64,000 bases of DNA from Thermogutta terrifontis. Lineage in GTDB: Bacteria; Planctomycetota; Planctomycetia; Pirellulales; Thermoguttaceae. Below are positions 3,590-59,930 of this stretch, one piece after another; within the stretch, counting starts at the first letter, position 1; the number at the start of each line of letters is the position of its first letter. The stretch is taken from positions 310,001 to 374,000 of the forward strand of contig NZ_CP018477.1 of assembly GCF_002277955.1 (NCBI RefSeq). Direction: 5' to 3'. Both the position numbers and the translations under genes were made by a program. The notes below the pieces were generated by a model, which searched no databases, was not told where the DNA came from, and saw only the letters and a list, made by a program, of their open reading frames with translations.

Positions 3590-4330
3590 ACGCATGGGAG
3601 GAGCGGCTTCCACCCGGCCGGTCACACGTTTTCATCCGGATCGACGGCAGGGTTGTGAAGGCTAAAGCCTTCACCGAAAAGCGGCTATAAATCGCCGCAC
3701 TCCAAGGAGTGCGGGGCTTTAGCCCCGCTTTCATCGCGGGACTTCAGTTCTGGCTAAACATCAATGAATGATCCAACGTCAAACGACGGACCTGACAGGC
3801 AGGTCCCTCCGACGGATCTTTCGGAGGGGCACGCTTGTCGTGCCCCATGAAGCGGCATGGTTTATCCAGCGTCGGAAAAGCGGACCGTGGAATGCGTCCT
3901 TCCATTGGATGGATTGGAGGAACGGCTTCCACCCGGCCGGTCGAACGTTTCCATTCGGATCGACGGCAGGATTGTGAAGGCTAAAGCCTTCACCGAAAAG
4001 CGGCGATAAATCGCCGCACTCCATGGAGTGCGGGGCTTTAGCCCCGCTTTCATCGCGGGACTTCAGTCCCCGGTGAAAGGCGATGGACGATCGAACATTG
4101 AACGACGGACCTGACAGGCAGGTCCCTCCGACGGATCTTTCGGAGTGGCACGCTTGTCGTGCCCGGTGAAGCGGCATGAGTCATCAATCGGTGTTCATCG
4201 GACCCGACAAGCGGGTCCCTCCGGAAAAGGGCGCTGCGATGGCGTAGGGGCGATTCATGAATCGCCCCGAAAATACATTCACCAGGGCCAAACGGCATGT
4301 CGGTCGGGGCAATTCATTAATTGCCCCTTC
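3590..4330 (-). repeat. Palindromic mosaic repeat cluster R1
   Basis: Two tandem passes of the palindrome mosaic lie between the divergent pilB-like and rpmG genes, in the orientation that reads ACAAG-loop hairpins on the plus strand. Visible units are GTGAAGGCTAAAGCCTTCAC, GCGGCGATAAATCGCCGC, the GCACTCCATGGAGTGC palindrome, the GCGGGGCT/AGCCCCGC stem, the GGGACT/AGTCCC stem, the GACCTG/CAGGTC hairpin and a GGGGCGATTC/GAATCGCCCC palindrome near 4250. A long linker beginning near 3595 recurs near 3918 almost unchanged. One palindrome centre is mutated at 3701 (CCAAGG instead of CCATGG). All open frames here are by-products of the repeats. Confidence 0.9.
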
Positions 4331-4387
4331 CGTCCAAGGTGCCGCCAAATACTCTCTAGAGCCGGGTCGGCCACCAAGGACCCGGCA

Positions 4388-7661: not shown

Positions 7662-8425
7662 TCGGGGGGACCTTTTCCGGAGAGTCGTGCTTGTCGGGTC
7701 CGCCTCTCGGAGGGACTTTCTTGTCGGGTCCAGCGAACACCGAATGATGACCCATTCCCCTTTCACCGGGCACGACGAGCGTGCCCCTCCGACCTATCGG
7801 AGGGACCAGCTTGTCAGGTCCGTTTGTCAACATTCGATGTTCCATTGGCCTTCGGCGGGGACTGAAGTCCCGCGCCGAAAGCGGGGCTAAAGCCCCGCAC
7901 TTCATGGAGTGCGGCGATTCATCGCCGCTTTTCGGTGAAGGCTTTAGCCTTCACAATCTTGGCGTTTGCGGTGTTTTGCCGCAGCCACCGAAGCTCTCCC
8001 ATGGTAGGGGCAATTCATGAATTGCCCCTACCGCATACGGAGGGACCTGCTTGTCGGGTCCAGCGAAACACCGATTGATGGCCCATCGCCTTTCACCGGG
8101 CACGACGAGCGTGCCCCTCCGACCTATCGGAGGGACGTGCTTGTCACGTCCGCCGTGCAACGTTCGATCATCCATTGCCTCTCATCGGGGACTGAAGTCC
8201 CGCGCCGAAAGCGGTGCTAAAGCCCCGCACTCCACAACTCGGAGGGACCTGCTTGTCGGGTCCAGCGAACACCGATTGATGGCCCATCGCCTTTCACCGG
8301 GCACGAGAAGCGTGCCCCTCCGACCTATCGGAGGGACCTGCTTGTCAGGTCCGTTCGTCAACGCTGGAAACATCCATTTCGTCTTCGTCATGTCGGATAG
8401 GACGAGCGTGCCCGGCCGACGTGGC
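7662..8425 (+). repeat. Palindromic mosaic repeat cluster R3
   Basis: This plus-oriented cluster holds at least six CTTGT- or ACAAG-loop hairpins. One is GGACCTG-CTTGT-CAGGTCC at 8334-8352. Also present are two GGGACT/AGTCCC stems, the GCGGGGCT/AGCCCCGC stem, a fused D-E junction near 7900 lacking the NcoI-type centre (CACTTCATGGAGTGC), GCGGCGAT/ATCGCCGC, the GTGAAGGC/GCCTTCAC stem, and a perfect 28-bp palindrome at 8004-8031 with arms GTAGGGGCAATTC and GAATTGCCCCTAC. The same linker (GATTGATGGCCCATCGCC) occurs twice. Confidence 0.92.
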
Positions 8426-20910: not shown

Positions 20911-21298
20911 TGGAAAGACGTACTTGCCAGGTCCGCCTCTCGGAGAGACCCGCTTGCCGGGTCGGCTTCTCCGACGATGGATGATCCATTGCGATTCACC
21001 GCGCACGACAAGCGTGCCCCTCCGGCCTTTCGGAGGGACCTGCTCGTCAGGTCCATCTTTTCGGAGGGACGTGCTTGTCACGTCCGCCGTTTGACGTCGG
21101 ATCGTCCATTCCCTTTCGGCGGGGACTGAAGTCCCGCGCCGAAAGCGGGGCTAAAGCCCCGCGCTCCATGGAGTGCGGCGATTTATCGCCGCTTTTTGGT
21201 GAAGGCTTTAGCCTTCATCGCCTTGTCATTTGCGGTGTTTTGCCGCAACCACGAAAGCGACCCACCGGTAGGGGCGATTCACGAATCGCCCCTACCGC
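20911..21298 (+). repeat. Palindromic mosaic repeat cluster R4
   Basis: One nearly complete mosaic unit: four CTTGT/ACAAG-type hairpins, then GGGACT/AGTCCC, GCGGGGCT/AGCCCCGC, a GCGCTCCATGGAGTGC centre, GCGGCGATTTATCGCCGC, the AAGGCT/AGCCTT stem, the linker with GTGTTTTGCCGCAACCACGAAAG, and a GGGGCGATTC/GAATCGCCCC palindrome with one changed centre base. A boundary motif follows at 21309-21343. The cluster ends 85 bp from the 3' end of the YkgJ gene. Confidence 0.92.
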
Positions 21299-23663: not shown

Positions 23664-23961
23664 CGGAGGGGCACGCCTGTCGTGCCCGGCTGCACATATG
23701 GAGTGCGGGGCTTTAGCCCCGCTTTCGGCGCGGGACTTCAGTCCCCGCTGAAACGGAATGGACAATCGAACGTTGAAAAGCGGACCCGACAAGCGGGTTC
23801 CTCCGAGAAATCATTCGGAGGGGCACGCCTGTCGTGCCCGGTAAAAGCGGAGGGGTCATCAATAGGTGTTCCTCGGACCCGACAAGCGGGTCCCTCCGAA
23901 GGCGGACGTGACAAGCACGTCCCTCCGAAAAGACGGACCCGACGAGCGGGTCCCTCCGACG
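23664..23961 (-). repeat. Palindromic mosaic repeat cluster R5
   Basis: A minus-oriented cluster starting with the GGGGCACG-CCTGT-CGTGCCC hairpin fused through CATATG (23695-23700) to the GAGTGCGGGGC unit. It then has AGTCCC/GGGACT and five CTTGT/ACAAG-loop hairpins with arms CCCG, CACG and CCTG types. The cluster ends 12 bp from the asnS stop codon. The long open frames crossing it are repeat by-products. Confidence 0.9.
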
Positions 23962-26698: not shown

Positions 26699-27173
26699 GC
26701 GGACCTGACAAGTGGGTTCCTCCGAAAGGTCGGAGGGGCACGCTTGTCGTGCCCGGTTCCACATATGGAGTGCGGGGCTTCAGCACCGCTTTCGGCGCGG
26801 GACTTTAGTCCCCGCCAGAAGGCAATGGATGAACGAGCGTTAAACGGCGGCCCCGACAAGCGGGTCCGTCCATTCGCGGTAGGGGCGATTCATGAATCGC
26901 CCCGAAAATACGTTCATCAGGGCCAAACGGCATGTCGGTAGGGGCAATTCGTGAAGTGCACCTACCCCGAGCATGCTTTCGTGGTCGCGGTGAAACACGG
27001 TTAACGCCAAGGTTGTGAAGGCTAAAGCCTTCACCGAAAAGCGGCGATGAATCGCCGCACTCCATGGAGTGCGGGGCTTCAGAACCGCTTTCGGCGTGGG
27101 ACTTTAGTCCCCGCTGAAACGGAATGGACAATCCAACGTTAAACGGCGGACCTGACAAGCAGGTCCCTCCGGA
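26699..27173 (-). repeat. Palindromic mosaic repeat cluster R6
   Basis: A minus-oriented cluster between the divergent trxB and sulfatase genes. It opens with a CCTG-type hairpin and a GGCACG-CTTGT-CGTGCC hairpin, is fused by CATATG at 26762-26767 to the GAGTGCGGGGC unit, and then holds AGTCCC/GGGACT, the GGGGCGATTC/GAATCGCCCC palindrome, GTGAAGGC/GCCTTCAC, GCGGCGAT/ATCGCCGC, GCACTCCATGGAGTGC and a final GGACCTG/CAGGTCC hairpin near 27150. Confidence 0.92.
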
Positions 27174-33476: not shown

Positions 33477-33802
33477 CGGAGGGGCACGCCTGTCGTGCCC
33501 GGCTTCAAATATGGAGTGCGGGGCTTTAGCCCCGCTTTCGGCGCGGGACTTCAGTCCCCGGTGAAACGGGATGGACGATCCAACGTTGAACGGCGGACCC
33601 GACAAGCGGGTCCCTCCGAAAGGTCGGAGGGGCACGCCTGTCGTGCCCGATGAGGAGGGATGGGTCGTCAATCGGTGTTCATCGGACCCGACGAGCGGAT
33701 CCCTCCATTTGCGGTACGGGCGATTCATGAATCGCCCCGAAAATACGTTCATCAGGGCCAAACGGCATGTCGGTAGGGGCAATTCATGAATTGCCCCTAC
33801 CG
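33477..33802 (-). repeat. Palindromic mosaic repeat cluster R7
   Basis: A minus-oriented cluster 20 bp after the OmpA gene. Order: GGGGCACG-CCTGT-CGTGCCC hairpin, GAGTGC/GGGGCT-AGCCCC unit (joined here through AATATGG), AGTCCC/GGGACT, CCCG-type hairpin, CACG-type hairpin, GGGCGATTC/GAATCGCCC, the CAAACGGCATG linker and a GGGGCAATTC/GAATTGCCCC palindrome. Decayed hairpin pieces continue to about 33870. Confidence 0.9.
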
Positions 33803-34971: not shown

Positions 34972-37155
34972 TTATTGCGCGGCGGCTGCGCTCCACTTTG
35001 TCCACAGCTCCGGGTACTCCAGAAACTTGATGAACACGCCACCGATCACCGGTCGGGCCCGAAATCCTCGCAGCCGGGCGTTATTCGTCCAGTACCAGTC
35101 GGTGAGCGGGACACGGTCCGGCGTTTCGTCGATAAAACGGTACAGAGGGTTCATGAGGGTGTCGAAATCCTCGCGCGAATCGGCGAGTGTTGCCGTCCAC
35201 ACCGTCCAATCCGTTTTGGTGAAGAGGGCCCGATTGTCCAGTGGCAAACCGTAGGGCTGGAGCTGCGTCTTGTAGAAGGCAATCTCTTTTTGGCGGACTT
35301 CCCCGGGAAAGACGTTGAGATTGAGGAGTTTATCCCACACAAGATTGTACTTCTGGCTCCAGGTGCCTGGTTTGTCAAACGCCAGACGGTAGTGATCACC
35401 GTCGTCGGCAGCCCGGATCCATTTGGCGGCAAAGTCTTCGGCCAGCTTGCGGTATTTCGTGGATTCCTCGGTTTTACCTGCCCGGTGACACATGTCGGCA
35501 TAGCACGCCAAAGCGAGGATGGCCTTGACGGAAAGGTTGCAATTGTGTGCCAGCGGGCCGGTGAAATCGTCCGTACAGAGCTGATTTTCGGGATCGAAGC
35601 CTTTCTCTTCGAGATATTCCGCCCAGCGCTGGAGGAGGGGCCAGTATTTCTCGGCATAGCGGGTGTTTCCATCCAGGCGGGAAACAACACACGCAAGGAT
35701 GAGGAGGTTGGCGGATTCCTCCACGGGCATCTGGTGCTCTTCACTCGTTTCACCTCCCCCATAGACCTGCCCGTTGGCCAGCGGATATGTTCCCAGATCG
35801 TGCGGTGCAAATGGGAATTTCCACCGTGGGCTGGCCGCGTATTCCAGAACCGGTGTGAGGGTTGCCTTGAGAAGCTCCTTATTGAACAGCATGAAAAACG
35901 GAGAGGCGGGATAGATGACATCCACGGTGGCGATGCAACCGTTGCTGAAGCATTCCTTGGAAAAGAGCATCGGTTCATCCTGAGGACCCAACGTCAGCTT
36001 ATGGGCGCCCAGGGTGTGCCGATACGCCAGCGCGATGAGATTCGCATATCCCCGACCGCCGACCTGTTCCGCGTCTTTCATCAGATTGCGGTCGAATTCT
36101 TCGCAGGCATCGAGAAGCCGCGGCAAATCTTTTGCTGCCTGAATGAGCACTTCGCCGATATGCGCGAAGTACTTCCGCCAGTACGGACGCAGCCGCTGGC
36201 CCAGGTATTCGATGGAAAGGATGTCATCATAGGCCAGCAGAACATGCCGGGATTGGGGCTGGGCGCCCACTGAACCAAGACGCCAGGCGCACGTCACCAC
36301 CGGCCAGCGATCCTGAGCGGCTCGCGGTTCGGAAGGATCATCCCGGCCGGGGACTGTTCCGGTTTCCACGAATACCCGGCGTGCGGATTCATGATTGGTC
36401 ATCACCGTGCGAAGGTCTTCACTCTGCGGAGCCGCCACGTACGCGTAGCCCCAATCGATTCGCAGGTCGTCACCTTTTTTCTGCAGCACGGGTTGTTCGA
36501 GTGTCCCGATCCGCATCCATACCAGGGAACCGGCCTGGCCGCGCTCCCAGATCACCACCTGGTCGGGCGTGTTGACGGCCAGCTCGGCCGAGTTGTCGTA
36601 GTAAAGCTCGACTTCGTGGGCACTGCCGTCGCGGGCCCAGACTTCCCAAATGAGATACGTGACCGGACGGGAGAGGAGATTGAGGTCGTGCGGCAGCACC
36701 GGCGTGAGAAAAGTCAGCCGCACGCCGATCTGCGGAGTTTCCCACTCGTAGATGGTCCGCGTGGGAAGCACGGTGAGGTTTTTCTGGGGCAGCGGGGGAA
36801 TATCCAACTGGGGTGTTCCCATCATCCGATACGCCTTGCCATCCACCCGGATAAGGCTGCACAGGGCATGGATGCGGCCGGTCCAGTGCCGTGGCCAATC
36901 CTCGGCCAGGTGATCGGTAAACGACCAGATGCTGAAATAGGGATCATGGACCACCAGAGGAACGGCCGGGGGACGACCTGCCGGCCCTTCGTTGGCGGAC
37001 AGACATCTCGATTCAGCGATCAGGGCAAACGTCCCTGCCGCACAGACCAGGACCCCAAAGGTGCCGAATTTCACGAAGTGTTTTTTCCCACCAGCGCGCA
37101 TGGAAAGAACTCCGACCAAAAATCGTCTCAGGAGAGCCAGCATGTAACCGAACAT
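34972..37155 (-). CDS. Glutaminase A-like secreted protein (DUF4965/DUF5127/DUF1793 type)
   Basis: This 727-residue protein has a positively charged N-terminus and a hydrophobic segment (about 28-48, VKFGTFGVLVCAAGTFALIA) that may be a signal anchor, then VVHDPYFSIWSFTDHLAEDWPRHW, a hallmark of the glutaminase A/DUF4965 family, and a large (alpha/alpha)6-like domain with DFTGPLAHNCNLSVKAILALACYA and TKTDWTVWTATLA. Fungal members hydrolyse glutamine; bacterial members are mostly uncharacterised. ATG starts at 37155, 37143 and 37101 are possible. It lies alone between the agmatinase and repeat cluster R8. Confidence 0.82.
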   Translation of the reverse strand: MFGYMLALLRRFLVGVLSMRAGGKKHFVKFGTFGVLVCAAGTFALIAESRCLSANEGPAGRPPAVPLVVHDPYFSIWSFTDHLAEDWPRHWTGRIHALCSLIRVDGKAYRMMGTPQLDIPPLPQKNLTVLPTRTIYEWETPQIGVRLTFLTPVLPHDLNLLSRPVTYLIWEVWARDGSAHEVELYYDNSAELAVNTPDQVVIWERGQAGSLVWMRIGTLEQPVLQKKGDDLRIDWGYAYVAAPQSEDLRTVMTNHESARRVFVETGTVPGRDDPSEPRAAQDRWPVVTCAWRLGSVGAQPQSRHVLLAYDDILSIEYLGQRLRPYWRKYFAHIGEVLIQAAKDLPRLLDACEEFDRNLMKDAEQVGGRGYANLIALAYRHTLGAHKLTLGPQDEPMLFSKECFSNGCIATVDVIYPASPFFMLFNKELLKATLTPVLEYAASPRWKFPFAPHDLGTYPLANGQVYGGGETSEEHQMPVEESANLLILACVVSRLDGNTRYAEKYWPLLQRWAEYLEEKGFDPENQLCTDDFTGPLAHNCNLSVKAILALACYADMCHRAGKTEESTKYRKLAEDFAAKWIRAADDGDHYRLAFDKPGTWSQKYNLVWDKLLNLNVFPGEVRQKEIAFYKTQLQPYGLPLDNRALFTKTDWTVWTATLADSREDFDTLMNPLYRFIDETPDRVPLTDWYWTNNARLRGFRARPVIGGVFIKFLEYPELWTKWSAAAAQ

Positions 37156-37241: not shown

Positions 37242-37945
37242 GGTAGGGACGATTCATGAATCGCCCCTACCGCAAATGGAGGGACCTGCTCGTCGGGTCC
37301 GATGAACACCGATTGATGACCCATCCCTCCTCATCGGGCACGACAAGCGTGCCCCTCCGAATAAACTCCGGAGGGACGTGCTTGTCACGTCCGCCTCCCG
37401 GAGGGACCCGCTTGTCGGGTCCGCTTTTCGACGTTGGATCATCCATTCCCTTTCACCGGGGACTGAAGTCCCGCGTGAAAAGCGGGGCTAAAGCCCCGCA
37501 CTCCATGGAGTGCGGCGATTCATCGCCGCTTTTCGGCGAAGGCTTTAGCCTTCACCACCTTGGCGCTGCCGATGTTTTACCGCGAATACGAAAACGGTTC
37601 CCTGGTAGGGGCAATTCATTAATTGCCCCTACCGCACATTGGAGGGCCCTGCCTGTCAGGCCCGATGCACAACGATTGATGCCCCATCCCCTTTCACCGG
37701 GCACGACAAGCGTGCCCCTCCGAATAAACTCCGGAGGGACGTGCTTGTCACGTCCGCCTCCCGGAAGGACCTTTTCCGGAGGGACCCGCTTGTCGGGTCC
37801 GCTTTTCGACGCTGGATCATCCATTCCCTTTCACCGGGGACTGAAGTCCCGCGCCGAAAGCGGGGCTAAAGCCCCGCACTCCATGGAGTGCGGCGATTTA
37901 TCGCCGCTTTTTAGTGAAGGCTTTAGCCTTCACCAACCTTGGCGT
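37242..37945 (+). repeat. Palindromic mosaic repeat cluster R8 (reference example)
   Basis: Two successive complete mosaic units, the clearest example in the window. Order in the first: GGGCACG-ACAAG-CGTGCCC (37336-37354), GGACGTG-CTTGT-CACGTCC (37374-37392), GGACCCG-CTTGT-CGGGTCC (37404-37422), linker with TTGGATCATCCA, GGGACT/AGTCCC, GCGGGGCT/AGCCCCGC, GCACTCCATGGAGTGC, GCGGCGATTCATCGCCGC, AAGGCT/AGCCTT, a linker containing TTTTACCGCGAATACGAAAA, and GTAGGGGCAATTC/GAATTGCCCCTAC near 37604-37632. The next unit repeats the whole order. The linker after the second F unit differs (CGGATCAAAACGGAGTACCG). Confidence 0.95.
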
Positions 37946-38068
37946 TGATCCGGATCAAAACGGAGTACCGATCGGGGCGGAACCCGATCCTCCACGGCGT
38001 CCAACGGATTGCCCGGTTCCCCCTGGGCTGACGGCGGTCCTTTGTTGAGGTGGGGTCGGGAAGCCGGA

Positions 38069-39118
38069 TCAGCGCTTCAGGTCAAGCGGGGCTCGAAAAC
38101 TTCCCTGTGACTGGGAGGAGCCAGCGGCCAGCAACCTCGTGCCAGATTCCTGGGGCTTTTGGTAAAGCCACGGTTGAAGTCGGGTCATTTCGGAGAGCAA
38201 ATCCCCGATTCCCTCGGCGGCTCCTACCACGAGATACCCGCCCGGCTGAAGGACCTTGAGCACGTTGTTCAGGACCACTTTCTTTGACCCCACGTCGAAA
38301 TAGATGAGGACATTTTTCAGAAAGATGAGGTCAAAGGGGCGTTCTGGCAGGGGATCCATGAGATTGTGCTGCCGGAAAGTGGTCATCTGGGTGAGGATCG
38401 GCTTTGCCCGCCACACTTCGGCATTGGGTAGTTTTTCAAAAAATCGCCGCTTTAAGTCGTCGGGAACAAGCCGCATTGCCCGTTCGCCGAAGGTTGCGGT
38501 GCGCGCCTGCTCAACGGCGCCCAGTCCAATATCGGTTCCCAGAATGGTGATCCGCCAACTGGCAAGGTCCGGAAGTTCGGCCGCGATACAGCAGGCAGCG
38601 GTAAACGCCTCGTCTCCCGTGCTACAGGCAGCCGACCAGATGCGGAGGGTCTTCATCGGTCCCCGCTGCCGGTTTGCCACTTCTGCCAAGAATTTTTTAC
38701 GGAACCATTGCCATTGGAGCTCATCGCGGAAGAGGTAGGTCTCGTGGGTTGTGATTTCCTGAAGGAAGGCGTCCCATTCTGGATGGCGAGAGGGTAGCTT
38801 GGTGAGATAGTCGTAATACTCGGAATAGCTGGATATGCCCGTTTCCCGCAATCGGCGACGAAGCCGATTGGAAAGCAAAGTCTTCTTCTGCGGAGAAATA
38901 CGGATTCCCGTCTTGCGATAGACCAGATCGGCATAGCGCTGGAGTTCGTCATCCGTTACCTGAGGGAGTGCCAGCGGTGAGGTGATTGGGGCAGGAGGCG
39001 CAATCTCATCCAAGTTGGCAACCTTCTTCTGTTGGCTGAGAATTGCAGGGCGGTGAGCGCGGTCTCCGCTGCCGGGTGGCTTGTGACCGGGATTAGGCAT
39101 CATGGCGCGATTCCTCAT
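38069..39118 (-). CDS. cheR: CheR-type chemoreceptor methyltransferase
   Basis: The 349-residue protein has an N-terminal Pro-rich stretch (1-50), a CheR helical domain (LQRYADLVYRKTGIRISPQKKTLLSNRLRRRLR), and an S-adenosylmethionine-binding domain with FLQEITTHETYLFRDELQWQWFRK, LRIWSAACSTGDEAFTAACC, ILGTDIGLGAVEQAR and DLIFLKNVLIYFD. It should methylate glutamates on chemoreceptors. ATG codons at 39103 and 39100 follow a better TGAGGAA ribosome binding site than 39118. It lies downstream of cheW on the same strand; no cheA, cheB or receptor gene is in the window. Confidence 0.92.
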   Translation of the reverse strand: MRNRAMMPNPGHKPPGSGDRAHRPAILSQQKKVANLDEIAPPAPITSPLALPQVTDDELQRYADLVYRKTGIRISPQKKTLLSNRLRRRLRETGISSYSEYYDYLTKLPSRHPEWDAFLQEITTHETYLFRDELQWQWFRKKFLAEVANRQRGPMKTLRIWSAACSTGDEAFTAACCIAAELPDLASWRITILGTDIGLGAVEQARTATFGERAMRLVPDDLKRRFFEKLPNAEVWRAKPILTQMTTFRQHNLMDPLPERPFDLIFLKNVLIYFDVGSKKVVLNNVLKVLQPGGYLVVGAAEGIGDLLSEMTRLQPWLYQKPQESGTRLLAAGSSQSQGSFRAPLDLKR

Positions 39119-41227: not shown

Positions 41228-42059
41228 CTCGGCGGGACCGGCTCGTCGGTTCCACCGCTCGGAGGGACCCGCCTGTCAGGTCCGCATATTGGAGGGACAT
41301 CTCGGAGGGACCCGCTCGTCGGGTCCGAGGAACACCTATTGATGACCCATCCGTTTTTACCGGGCACGACAAGCGTGCCCCTCCGAAAAAATTCCGGAGG
41401 GACGTGCTTGTCACGTCTGCCTCCCGGAGGGACCCGCTTGTCGGGTCCGCTTTTCGACGTTGGATCGTCCATTCCCTTTCACCGGGGACTGAAGTCCCGC
41501 GCTGAAAGCGGGGCTAAAGCCCCGCACTCCATGGAGTGCGGCGATTTATCGCCGCTTTTTCGTGAAGGCTTTAGCCTTCACAACCCTGTCATTGACCTGA
41601 ATGGAAAACGGAGTACCGGTCGCGGTGGAACCCGATCCTGCCATTCATCCAATAGAAAGACGCATTCCACGGTCCGCTTTTCCGAGGTTGGATAAACCAT
41701 GCCGCTTCATCGGGCACGACAAGCGTGCCCCTCCGACCGTTTGGCCCTAATTAACGTATTTTCGGGGCGATTCATGAATCGCCCGTACCGCAAATGGAGG
41801 GACCTGCTTGTCAGGTCCGCTTTTCCACCATGGGTGATCCATTTCATCTCATCGGGCACGACAAGCGTGCCCCTCCGAAAAAATTCCGGAGGGACGTGCT
41901 TGTCACGTCCGCCTCCCGGAGGGACCCGCTTGTCGGGTCCGCTTTTCGACGTTGGATCATCCATTCCCTTTCACCGGGGACTGAAGTCCCGCGCTGAAAG
42001 CGGGGCTAAAGCCCCGCACTCCATATGTGGAGCCGGCCACGACAAGCGTGCCCCTCCAA
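41228..42059 (+). repeat. Palindromic mosaic repeat cluster R9
   Basis: About 830 bp of plus-oriented mosaic directly after truD. Hairpins at the left include GGGACCG-GCTCGT-CGGTTCC and CCTG-type forms. Two passes of the C-D unit occur, the first followed by GCGGCGATTTATCGCCGC and a linker with GAAAACGGAGTACCGGTCG. The second unit ends through CATATG at 42022-42027 fused to a GGCCACGACAAGCGTGCC hairpin, leaving out E, F and G. This is the longest cluster but one. Confidence 0.93.
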
Positions 42060-46336: not shown

Positions 46337-46400
46337 GGCTGTGGAACTTTCCATCACGAAGCGTGGGAGCGGCGATGCAGGCGGGAGGTGCCTCTTCCGC

Positions 46401-47261
46401 GGGGACGTGCTTGTCACGTATACATTCGGTTGATTAAACAGTAGGGGCAATTAATGAATTGCCCCGGCAAGCTCGGAGGGACCCGCTTGTCAGGTCCGCT
46501 TTTCCACCATGGGTGATCCATTTCATCTCATCGGGCACGACAAGCGTGCCCCTCCGACCTTTCGGAGGGACGTGCTTGTCACGTCCGCCGTTCAACGTTC
46601 GATCATCCATTGTGTTTCGACGGGGACTAAAGCTCGGAGGGACCCGCTTGTCGGGTCCACTTTTCGACGTTGGATCGTCCATTCCCTTTCACCCGGGACC
46701 AAAGTCCCGCGCTAAAAGCGGTGCTAAAGCCCCGCACTCCATGGAGTGCGGCGATTCATCGCCGCTTTTTAGTGAAGGCTTTAGCCTTCACAACCTTGCC
46801 GTTTACGGCGTTTTGCCGGGACCACGAAAACGGTCCCCTGGTAGGCGCAATTCATGAATTGCCCCTAGCGAACATCTTGTTTAGTCCTGGTAGACGTGTT
46901 TTTGGGGGCGATTCATGAATCGCCCCTACCGCACATCGGAGGAATCCGCTTGTCGGGTCCGATGAATCCCGATTGATGACCTATCCCTCCTCATCGGGCA
47001 CGACAAGCGTGCCCCTCCGACCTTTCGGAGGGACGTGCTTGTCACGTTCGCAGTTTAACGATCGACCATGCATTGCCTTTCAGCGGGCACGACAAGCGTG
47101 CCCCACCGAATCCTTTCTTGGGAGGGACCCGCTTGTCGGGTCCGCTTTTCGACGTTGGATCATCCATTCCCTTTCACCGGGGACTAAAGTCCCGCGCTGA
47201 AAGCGGGGCTAAAGCCCCGCACTCCATATGTGTTGCCGGCCACGACAGGTGCACCTATCCA
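46401..47261 (+). repeat. Palindromic mosaic repeat cluster R10
   Basis: The longest cluster, plus-oriented, lying between the recA copy and the dnaE 3' end. It contains at least seven CTTGT/ACAAG hairpins, a GGGGCAATT/AATTGCCCC palindrome near 46445 and another at 46848-46867 (CAATTC form), and a GGGGCGATTC/GAATCGCCCC palindrome at 46905-46926 (G:C form). One C-D-E-F unit lies near 46690-46790. The right end is a CATATG junction at 47225-47230 to a degraded hairpin, followed by a boundary motif. Confidence 0.93.
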
Positions 47262-51131: not shown

Positions 51132-51352
51132 GGGAGGGACGTGCTTGTCACGTCCGATGCACACGGATTGATAATCCATTCTTTTCCGCGGGCACGACAA
51201 GCGTGCCCCTCCGAATAAACTCCGGAGGGACGTGCTTGTCACGTACGCCTCCCGGAGGGACCTTTTCCGGAGGGACCCGCTTGTCGGGTCCGTGGTGCCA
51301 CGTTCGATTATCAATTGCCTTTCACCGGGCACGACAAGCGTGCCCCTCCGAC
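51132..51352 (+). repeat. Palindromic mosaic repeat cluster R11
   Basis: A short plus-oriented cluster between divergent dnaE and glgC made only of B and A hairpins: GGACGTG-CTTGT-CACGTCC, GGGCACG-ACAAG-CGTGCCC, GGACGTG again with a CACGTAC arm, GGACCCG-CTTGT-CGGGTCC and a final ACAAG hairpin. It lacks the C to G units. Confidence 0.92.
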
Positions 51353-53979: not shown

Positions 53980-54172
53980 ACTCCCCGCCGGACGCAGGAC
54001 ACAGACCGACCGATCAGATTTCTAATGCGGTGGACTTGTGAATCGGCGGTGCAACGCATGGACCATTGGAGCAACGACAAACCGTGCTCGAAGAGGGGCT
54101 ATTCAGGAACTGCTCTTCCGAGACATCAGTCATCTTGCTGAAACCATCGTGCCAAGTCGATCAAATCTTGTC

Positions 54173-54514
54173 AGGGGCAATTCATGAATGGCCCCTACAC
54201 CGTCGGAGGAACGTGCTTGTCACGTTCGCTTTTCTTGGGGGGACCTTTTCCGGAGGGACGTGCTTGTCACGTCCGATGAAAACCGATTGATTACCCATCC
54301 CGCCTCCCCGGGCACGACAAGCGTGCCCCTCCAACCTTTTCCGGAGGGACGTGCTTGTCACGTCCGCCGTTCAACGTTTGATTATCCATTGCCTTCCGGC
54401 GGGGACTAAAGTCCCGCGCCGAAAGCGGTGCTAAAGCCCCGCACTCCACATATCGCAGGCTCGGTTCCGCCCGGGCCATGCCAACGGTAGGGTTCATTCA
54501 TGAATGGCCCTACA
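54173..54514 (+). repeat. Palindromic mosaic repeat cluster R12
   Basis: A plus-oriented cluster with four GTG/CAC-type hairpins in a row, one GGGCACG-ACAAG-CGTGCCC hairpin, GGGACT/AGTCCC, GCGGTGCT/AGCCCCGC with one mismatch and an ACATAT junction near 54449. Diverged GGGGCAATTC/GAATGGCCCC and GGGTTCATTC/GAATGGCCC palindromes mark both ends. Confidence 0.9.
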
Positions 54515-56400: not shown

Positions 56401-57036
56401 ATCCCGCGTCGAAAGCGGGGCTAAAGCCCCGCACTCCATGGAGTGCGGCGATTTATTATGGAGTGCGGCGATTTATCGCCGCTTTGTGGTGAAGGCTTTA
56501 GCCTTCACCAACCTTGCCGTTTACGCTGTCTTGCCGCGACCACGAGAAGCCGTGGACCGGTAGGGGCAATTCATGAATTGCCCCTACGCCGTCGGAGGGA
56601 CGTGCTTGTCGGGTCCGAGGAACACCCATTGTTGCCCCATCCCCTTTCACCGGGCACGACAAGCGAGCCCCTCCGATCCTTCGGAGGGACCTGCTTGTCA
56701 GGTCCGCCATTTAACGTTGGATCATCCATTGCCTTTCACCGCGGACTGAAGTCCCGCGATGAAAGCGGGGCTAAAGCCCCGCACTCCATGGAGTGCGGCG
56801 ATTCATCGCCGCTTTTTCGTGAAGGCTTTAGCCTTCACCACCTTGCCGTTGATCCGCATGAAAACCGAGTAGCGATCGCGGTGGAAGCCGTCCCTGCAAT
56901 CCATGCAATGGAGAGACGCGTTTACGGTATCCAACCGTGACGCGTTCAATTATCCCGGGCACGACAAGCGTGCCCCTCCGATCCTTCGGAGGGACCTGCT
57001 TGTCAGGTCCGCCGACGAACGTTCGATGATCCATTC
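56401..57036 (+). repeat. Palindromic mosaic repeat cluster R13
   Basis: A plus-oriented cluster between the convergent larA and fusA genes, abutting both (34 and 41 bp). A GGAGTGCGGCGATTTAT stretch is duplicated in tandem near 56440-56475. Two C-D-E-F units are present with the two alternative linkers after F (ACGCTGTCTTGCCGCGACC and CGCATGAAAACCGAGTAGCG). It has GGGGCAATTC/GAATTGCCCC near 56565 and several ACAAG/CTTGT hairpins, including a CTTG/CAGG form at the right end. Confidence 0.93.
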
Positions 57037-59531: not shown

Positions 59532-59930
59532 GCTGGTTAACCGGTAGGGACCATTCATGAGTTGCCCCTATCGGGAGAGACGCGTTCCACGGCGTCCAAT
59601 GAACCCTCGGAGGGGCACGCTTGTCGTGCCCGGTGAAAGGCAATTGATAATCGAACGTGGCACCACGGACCCGACAAGCGGGTCCCTCCGGGGTTGTAGG
59701 GGCAATTCATGAATTGACCCTACCAGGGAACCGTTTTCGTGGTCGCGGTAAAACATCGGCAGCGCCAAGGTGGTGAAGGCTAAAGCCTTCACCGAAAAGC
59801 GGCGATAAATCGCCGCACTCCATGGAGTGCGGGGCTTTAGCCCCGCTTTCAGTGCGGGACTTCAGTCCGCGGGGAAACGGAATGGACACGCAACGTTGAA
59901 CGGCGGACGTGACAAGCACGTCCCTCCGGA
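59532..59930 (-). repeat. Palindromic mosaic repeat cluster R14
   Basis: A minus-oriented cluster with GGGCAATTC/GAATTG palindromes at both its left part and near 59700, a GGCACG-CTTGT-CGTGCC hairpin, a CCCG-type hairpin, the GTGAAGGC/GCCTTCAC, GCGGCGAT/ATCGCCGC, GCACTCCATGGAGTGC, GGGGCT/AGCCCC and GGGACT/AGTCC units and a final CACG-type hairpin near 59910. The order is the exact reverse of R8. Confidence 0.92.

Follow-up and report, generated by a model that had tools for sequence, protein, structure and literature searches.

Hairpin arrays with paired arm changes in Thermogutta terrifontis are probably REP/REPIN-like passengers of RAYT transposases

What kind of element is built from short intergenic palindromes whose two arms change together around a nearly constant loop? 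The question is raised by Thermogutta terrifontis, a thermophilic planctomycete, in a 64-kb window (bases 310001-374000 of its single 4,810,751-bp contig) that we analyzed together with samples of the remaining genome and of other genomes. At 37242-37934 of the window, where a first-pass annotation had placed a palindrome mosaic, our tokeniser resolves 18 hairpin tokens in one chain, flanked by a glutaminase-like gene (34972-37155, minus strand) and a CheR gene (38069-39118, minus strand). A 230-aa open reading frame across the chain (37256-37948) was considered as protein-coding and rejected, having been passed over by the codon model. The annotation proposed selection on a folded RNA or a cruciform and knew of no named family of this design. 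We conclude, with a probability of about 0.88, that the chains are composite REP/REPIN arrays, similar to BIMEs, and non-autonomous passengers of RAYT transposases.

Three palindrome types build the mosaics. Type A, with the CTTGT loop, is a 23-nt element in which GGAG is followed by a 7-bp stem around that loop; its arms are GGGCACG in class A1 and GGACCTG, GGACCCG, or GGACGTG in class A2. Type C (GGAGTGC..) comprises class C1, GGAG-T-GCGGGGCT.TT.AGCCCCGC, and class C2, GGAG-T-GCGGCGAT.TY.ATCGCCGC; an accessory hairpin (D or E) follows each of them. Type T (GTAG..CTAC) reads GTAGGGGCRATTC-AT-GAATYGCCCCTAC, and the paired A:T to G:C swap reported for its stem is confirmed, with A-T at 47 and G-C at 9 of 69 sites. 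The constant part of type A is not confined to the loop. It also includes the 5' GGAG foot, which the annotation had missed and which, left free in the search, is present at 166 of 173 type A sites. Nor is the loop invariant, as had been stated: fully paired sites carry CTTGT (173), CTCGT (32), CCTGT (16), or CTGGT (4), and two variants lie in the focal chain itself, at 37278 and 37641.

Hairpins of the focal chain, followed by the other chains of the window (window positions)
Feature	Position	Strand
T palindrome, G variant, double foot GTAG..CTAC	37242-37271	
A2 hairpin, GGAG foot, loop CTCGT, one stem position unmatched; starts REPIN A2-35-A1	37278-37300	+
A1 hairpin GGGCACG-CTTGT-CGTGCCC (minus strand); ends REPIN with CTCC	37336-37358	-
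A2 hairpin, arms GGACGTG/CACGTCC, loop CTTGT	37370-37392	+
A2 hairpin, arms GGACCCG/CGGGTCC; starts unit A2-35-D-6-C1	37400-37422	+
D accessory hairpin GGGGACTGAAGTCCC	37458-37475	-
C1 hairpin, type C, minus-strand foot GGAG-T; same hairpin as at the intact RAYT	37482-37504	-
C2 hairpin GGAG-T-GCGGCGATTCATCGCCGC	37507-37529	+
E accessory hairpin	37535-37556	+
T palindrome, A variant	37604-37633	
A2 hairpin, loop CCTGT, one stem position unmatched; 3 mismatches to class	37641-37663	+
A1 hairpin	37699-37721	-
A2 hairpin, GGACGTG class	37733-37755	+
A2 hairpin, GGACCCG class	37778-37800	+
D accessory hairpin	37836-37853	-
C1 hairpin	37860-37882	-
C2 hairpin (37890-37907), then T5, up to 37912; terminator-like on paper	37885-37907	+
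E accessory hairpin, last of focal chain	37913-37934	+
Chain, 15 hairpins, reverse order	3654-4331	
Chain, 17 hairpins	7679-8352	
Chain, 9 hairpins	20942-21296	
Chain, 8 hairpins, reverse order	23665-23957	
Chain, 12 hairpins, reverse order	26701-27170	
Chain, 8 hairpins, reverse order	33478-33801	
Chain, 19 hairpins	41231-42057	
Chain, 18 hairpins	46399-47225	
Chain, 5 hairpins; different units at orthologous site of sister species	51133-51349	
Chain, 7 hairpins	54170-54447	
Chain, 13 hairpins	56415-57010	
Chain, 9 hairpins, reverse order	59543-59927	

The palindromes follow a largely fixed order, T - A2>35<A1 - A2>35<D-6-<C1-2-C2>-5-E-47-T. The annotation had counted 14 clusters in one fixed order; the tokeniser finds 13 chains in the window, the focal one included, and the order holds in either orientation. 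Spacings were measured in a genome sample made of the window and 60 stretches of 20 kb (1,264,000 bases, 26% of 4.81 Mb). A2 and A1 stand head to head in 98 cases, 94 of them 34-37 nt apart, and a head-to-head A2/A2 pair occurs once. The other neighbor rules are strict as well: 35 nt in 43 of 48 A2/D neighbors, 6 nt in 50 of 50 D/C1 neighbors, 2 nt in 29 of 38 tail-to-tail C1/C2 pairs, and 5 nt in 37 of 40 C2/E neighbors. A unit thus starts at a GGAG foot and ends at a CTCC foot, and successive units, chimeric A/C units among them, meet at their tails. Like REPINs, inverted A doublets keep a defined spacer (35 nt in 51 of 69, and 34, 36, or 37 nt in 16 more), and like BIMEs the arrays are REP mosaics of alternating orientation. 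Single hairpins make up 33 of 115 chains. Of the chains of two or three hairpins, 13 of 26 contain the A2-35-A1 unit, which is therefore likely the basic one.

Do the arms covary, and if so, how? The pattern GGAG-N6-GCTTGTC-N6 occurs 232 times in the sample, and in 167 of these sites all six positions pair. The three variable stem positions are paired in 219, 218, and 210 of the 232 sites, as compared to 124.9, 87.0, and 113.8 under independence. The arm classes that the annotation had named are indeed there and account for nearly all fully paired sites (GGGCAC 55, GGACCT 44, GGACCC 33, and GGACGT 31; 163 of 167). Among the 227 sites with at least four pairs, 64 fall outside the four classes: 44 combine one class arm with a changed partner, 14 combine arms of two classes, and 6 have neither. 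Only four of these 64, of two types, are fully paired, which argues for a small number of double changes that were copied and thereafter decayed, mostly without pairing. Against the refuting condition set by the annotation the outcome is split: pairing exceeds independence, yet the covariation in T. terrifontis is mostly that of four copied arm classes, and later changes are mostly unpaired. Mismatched cells (G.T 24, A.C 20, other 24) give no sign of selection on an RNA strand, since G.T barely exceeds A.C. Conservation is mostly 90-100% at hairpin and foot positions, values inflated by the choice of copies for hairpin likeness, and mostly 30-80% at spacer positions.

Genome-wide extraction bore out the expected recurrence above chance. 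The exact type A pattern is found 508 times (252 forward, 256 reverse) and its reversed control not once on either strand, a copy number and element size (23 nt) in keeping with REPs, which are palindromes of 20-40 bp in high copy. The hairpins are also extragenic as REPs are: in the 26% sample, 6 of 676 midpoints fall inside genes predicted by a simple codon model, as compared to 523 expected. This supports the earlier view that selection acts on a folded nucleic acid rather than on protein, as does the pairing kept in other lineages (below). Hairpins occur in 29 of 97 gaps between divergent genes, in 15 of 103 between convergent genes, and in 51 of 361 between tandem genes. Their density peaks at 20 per 10 kb within 0-0.85 Mb of the contig, is mostly 0-2 over 0.9-2.9 Mb (exceptions are 4.0 at 1.47 Mb and 9.0 at 1.53 Mb), and is 0-8 beyond 2.9 Mb. 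The minimum of GC content, at ~2.1-2.6 Mb, lies on the hairpin-sparse side. The difference between the rich part (1-850000) and the sparse part (900000-2900000) may be an origin-proximal enrichment.

The arrays differ between sister species. Five sites could be aligned on both flanks; four have arrays in both genomes that differ by units. One array of T. terrifontis has one A2-35-A1 unit more than its counterpart, and another exceeds its own by five hairpins (one A2-A1 unit, two A2, and one T). At the fifth site a lone T hairpin is absent from the sister species within a 196-nt difference. Two further hairpin sites lie inside unbroken alignments, and a clean empty site for an A unit was not seen among the sister-species sites compared. 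Such differences between orthologous arrays may reflect either gain or loss of units.

RAYT transposases are HUH/Tyr enzymes related to IS200/IS605. T. terrifontis has one intact RAYT gene that we could find (896562-896966 of the contig; NF047646, 83 bits at a cut-off of 80), and it lies directly between type C hairpins, so that type C flanks a RAYT in its own genome, as expected for a RAYT-linked REP. The HUH and Tyr positions, as assigned in this analysis, are invariant in all eight aligned RAYT rows. A profile of both RAYT clades described below has E. coli TnpArep (4er8) as its best solved match (E 4.6e-19), with the next transposase at 5e-06. Relatives of the intact gene are present in 25 of 396 genomes, its own included. 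Five relatives at 54-59% identity (L099, L101, L102, L105, and L106) have GGAG-T-GC hairpins nearby, each with its own paired arms, and another in this identity range (L100) has one by a looser rule; a search beside two C-clade relatives at 42% identity (L103 and L104) yielded no type C hairpin. The RAYT at L099, in genome G058, has one stop codon and adjoins a tandem repeat of ~126 bp, whose six or seven copies carry GGAG-T-GC hairpins.

A second RAYT-like gene of T. terrifontis, at 3676418-3676786, is broken and has a GTAG double-foot hairpin inside. In the surrounding region (3675110-3678286) the frame is interrupted, and GTAGGGGCACGGCATGCCGTGCCCCTAC lies between the HUH and Tyr motifs. An ORF downstream may be PIN-like.

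RAYT-like genes are found in 17 of 17 type A genomes reached through loci, among the matches listed, and also in 16 of 16 relatives without type A, whereas the sister draft with type A (G001; 265 copies, 1120 contigs) gave no RAYT-like match at E 0.001. Mere presence is thus uninformative, and the neighborhood of the genes is what informs. Four other genomes have type A hairpins next to or within RAYT genes, and in two of them these genes are near-identical. In Lentisphaerae GWF2_50_93 the RAYT gene stands between two A-type hairpins with outward feet, unequal arms, and the loops CTTGT and CTTGC. A FastTree phylogeny was built from 119 non-identical RAYT rows, and label A was given to rows with type A in the gene itself or no more than 600 nt away. 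The four A-labeled rows, two of them near-identical genes (L350 and L361, of genomes G398 and G400), fall in one clade of seven (support 99), and the ten C-labeled rows (nine genes) in one clade of 13 (support 98). Labels change five times along the tree as compared to 13.7 times in shuffles, none of 200 of which was as low. One row outside the A clade (L363) was hand-labeled as not flanked, since ~1.1 kb separates its A hairpins from the RAYT domain; if it is taken as flanked, four of five A rows lie in the A clade. Three of the seven A-clade rows (L016, L298, and L301) lack label A, and of these L016 has GGAG hairpins with another loop. Of 29 RAYT loci scanned with a strict hairpin finder, 14 gave no hairpin. 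At L350 and L361 many type A hairpins lie mostly inside the A-clade RAYT frame, like in-gene REP insertions.

The A-clade enzyme was not found in T. terrifontis with Pfam Y1_Tnp, NCBIfam, or an A-clade profile, to which only the C-type gene responds (35.7 bits). Over 31 genomes of its family the profile has one strong match, in G010 (244.8 bits; next 59.6), where the gene adjoins GGAG hairpins with another loop and unequal arms. Type A therefore looks orphaned in T. terrifontis. Together, these neighborhoods suggest that type A and C hairpins are probably copied by RAYT transposases.

How far does the type A frame extend? Within 99 genomes searched as relatives, the own genome included, the exact type A pattern occurs in T. 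terrifontis and the same-genus draft G001 and is absent from the other 97, two of the same genus among them; in a phylum sample of 392 it is absent from all 391 others. A scan of genome contigs for GGAG/CTTGT returned at least 117 stretches. The matches listed come from a Thermogutta MAG, from rumen and other Kiritimatiellae and Lentisphaerae, and from Verrucomicrobia, with isolated hits in further phyla, perhaps due to chance; copy numbers in other PVC genomes, resting on the matches listed, are to be read as at least. Foot and loop are the same in these lineages, as set by the search pattern, and the arms vary by lineage among the matches listed. The remaining stem positions are set by the pattern as well, so that only three free positions count. 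Pairs at these are kept in 41, 47, and 46 of 54 rows from outside Thermogutta, one per genome and arm pair with related genomes included, as compared to 16.1, 29.2, and 29.2 expected; none of 2000 shuffles reaches the observed pairing at any of the three. By row, 33 have all three free pairs, 15 two, 5 one, and 1 none. Type A is patchy among the matches listed (two Thermogutta species, Kiritimatiellae, Lentisphaerae, and Verrucomicrobia), suggesting that the RAYT/REP pair has spread horizontally.

In no unit examined are the two halves equal. Identical arms are found in none of the 69 head-to-head A units of the T. terrifontis sample, with 25% expected under random partners, although the inequality is inherited and the 69 units are not independent; nor are they found in any of ten units from other lineages, some of them close relatives. 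We folded the 39 own units in which both halves are fully paired, using DNA energies. The mean minimum energy is -19.7; 21 of the minimum-energy folds keep both hairpins and 16 keep neither. When the arms are made equal in silico the mean drops to ~-34, and both hairpins are kept in none of the 39, which form one long hairpin instead. The heterodimer rule, to which all 69 own and all 10 foreign units conform, thereby gains a direct prediction from folding, two hairpins versus one. A clover fold, not a long hairpin, has been proposed as the RAYT substrate (PMC3116915), a preference for heterodimers has been described as lacking an obvious explanation (Di Nocera 2013, PMC3733652), and unique loop positions are exclusively selected in group 3 REPs (PMC8266576). 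In combination, these three features would explain a constant loop and foot with jointly changing arms.

We weighed what other kinds of element could leave the same traces. Structured non-coding or cis-regulatory RNAs, with stems covarying under selection on the RNA fold, would account for compact GC-rich hairpins whose arms change together, and strand-specific RNA-seq of this strain has been described (PMC5673643). The folded-RNA part of the earlier proposal did not hold up: Rfam gives no match at gathering score in the 64-kb window, G.T mismatches are not enriched where RNA selection should favor G.U, 60 of the 64 copies that belong to none of the four classes have at least one stem position unpaired, and convergent or tandem gaps are not preferred. 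An unknown covarying RNA is not supported, and we regard RNA-fold selection as highly improbable. Intrinsic terminators, perhaps bidirectional and spreading between genes, would fit the second C2 hairpin of the focal chain, which with its T5 is called terminator-like, the GCTTTTC that follows some A2 hairpins, and the listing of termination among REP roles (PMC3733652, PMC6006769). Set against this, none of the type A hairpins of the focal chain is called terminator-like, the region has 3 terminator-like sites as compared to 1.1 (sd 1.0) in shuffles, convergent gaps hold fewer tokens than divergent ones, and the paired feet and 35-nt spacing are left unexplained. Terminators as the nature of the arrays are thus very unlikely, and terminator activity may be a side effect of type C.

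The larger organization of the arrays allows two further readings. The tandem spacing of 363-378 bp inside the focal chain and the largely fixed order would be expected of one composite repeat of several hundred bases that spread as a block, by tandem or ectopic duplication or gene conversion, with small units that are not mobile. This is doubtful given that A2-35-A1 occurs in half of the chains of two or three hairpins, that orthologous sites differ by single units, and that the types part company elsewhere, type C standing beside RAYTs in genomes without type A (G058 and G016, for example) and type A being found at RAYT loci that lack type C. Chromosome features that serve the host, such as sites for gyrase, a nucleoid protein, or recombination, and that are by now retained in their own right could be distributed like these copies, densely at ~0-0.85 Mb and sparsely over most of 0.9-2.9 Mb, the lowest-GC side; their absence from most relatives and almost the entire phylum sample, and the differences at orthologous sites, make this unlikely.

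As REP/REPIN-like passengers of RAYTs, the elements resemble described systems, so the view that there is no named family does not hold, and each comparison also sets them apart. REPINs consist of two inverted REP hairpins and a spacer, are extragenic, lie near RAYTs and in tandem clusters, and were noted to carry compensatory changes (Bertels and Rainey 2011, PMC3116915). The Thermogutta units differ in the GGAG guide, in the unequal arms of every unit examined, in chimeric A/C units, and in A units for which we found no matching RAYT. BIMEs bind IHF, gyrase, or Pol I. They share the regular spacing of REPs in alternating orientation (PMC2817692), whereas the Thermogutta arrays join three palindrome types with GGAG and GTAG feet, two of the types being tied to different RAYT clades. 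The GTAG-tagged REP superfamily shares palindromes of 20-40 bp, a 4-nt tag, heterodimers, and members in PVC, and most of its families have sub-families with alternative complementary stem residues (Di Nocera 2013, PMC3733652), so this feature too had already been reported. The guide of described REPs is GT[AG]G, with GGAG outside it (PMC6006769), and GGAG was not found in the main text of PMC3733652, figures apart. Type T alone has the GT[AG]G 5' guide; types A and C carry GGAG and are therefore not filed as members of the GTAG superfamily. Type T (GTAG..CTAC) matches the double-foot REPs of TnpA_REP subclass 2.4, where such a REP lies between the HUH and Tyr motifs (PMC6006769) as in the broken RAYT-like gene, which differs in its broken frame and is a candidate member of the subclass.

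A GGAG-guided REP class or its link to a RAYT clade did not turn up in searches of open-licence PMC papers (figures and supplements apart), in the parts of PMC3733652 and PMC6006769 available to us, or by a term search of PMC2817692. Four features are apparently new: the GGAG guide, the tie of two GGAG REP types to two RAYT clades across PVC phyla, the strictness of the heterodimer rule, and chimeric arrays that lack one of the transposases.

How would such elements change their arms in pairs? In the mechanism that we propose, the RAYT would recognize guide (GGAG) and loop on single-stranded DNA and would need the stem mainly as a stem, so that the arms may change if both sides change. Copies would arise from a few master sequences and then decay. 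The halves of a unit would have to differ to form two hairpins and not one long hairpin, which would push the arms to diverge while each stays self-paired. Arrays would change through gain and loss of whole units. The A-clade RAYT may have been lost from T. terrifontis or may never have been there, and its A units would be either fossils or substrates mobilized in trans by the C-type RAYT, which has the GGAG guide in common with them.

More tentatively, at somewhat less than even odds, the elements belong to a GGAG-guide REP superfamily of Planctomycetota, Verrucomicrobia, Kiritimatiellae, and Lentisphaerae, spread by at least two separate RAYT lineages. Its units would be obligate heterodimers in which self-pairing is required and partner-pairing barred; with loop and guide read by the transposase, this would yield paired arm changes, and the shared guide would permit chimeric units that outlive one lost transposase.

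Stem covariation alone is no proof of RNA, as a handful of double changes that are then copied can produce the same pattern. What appeared to be a new covarying RNA becomes a testable case of DNA hairpins read by a transposase. With 508 copies in a thermophile in which no matching transposase was found, T. terrifontis offers a natural test of how long passengers of this kind persist, or of whether another RAYT sustains them.
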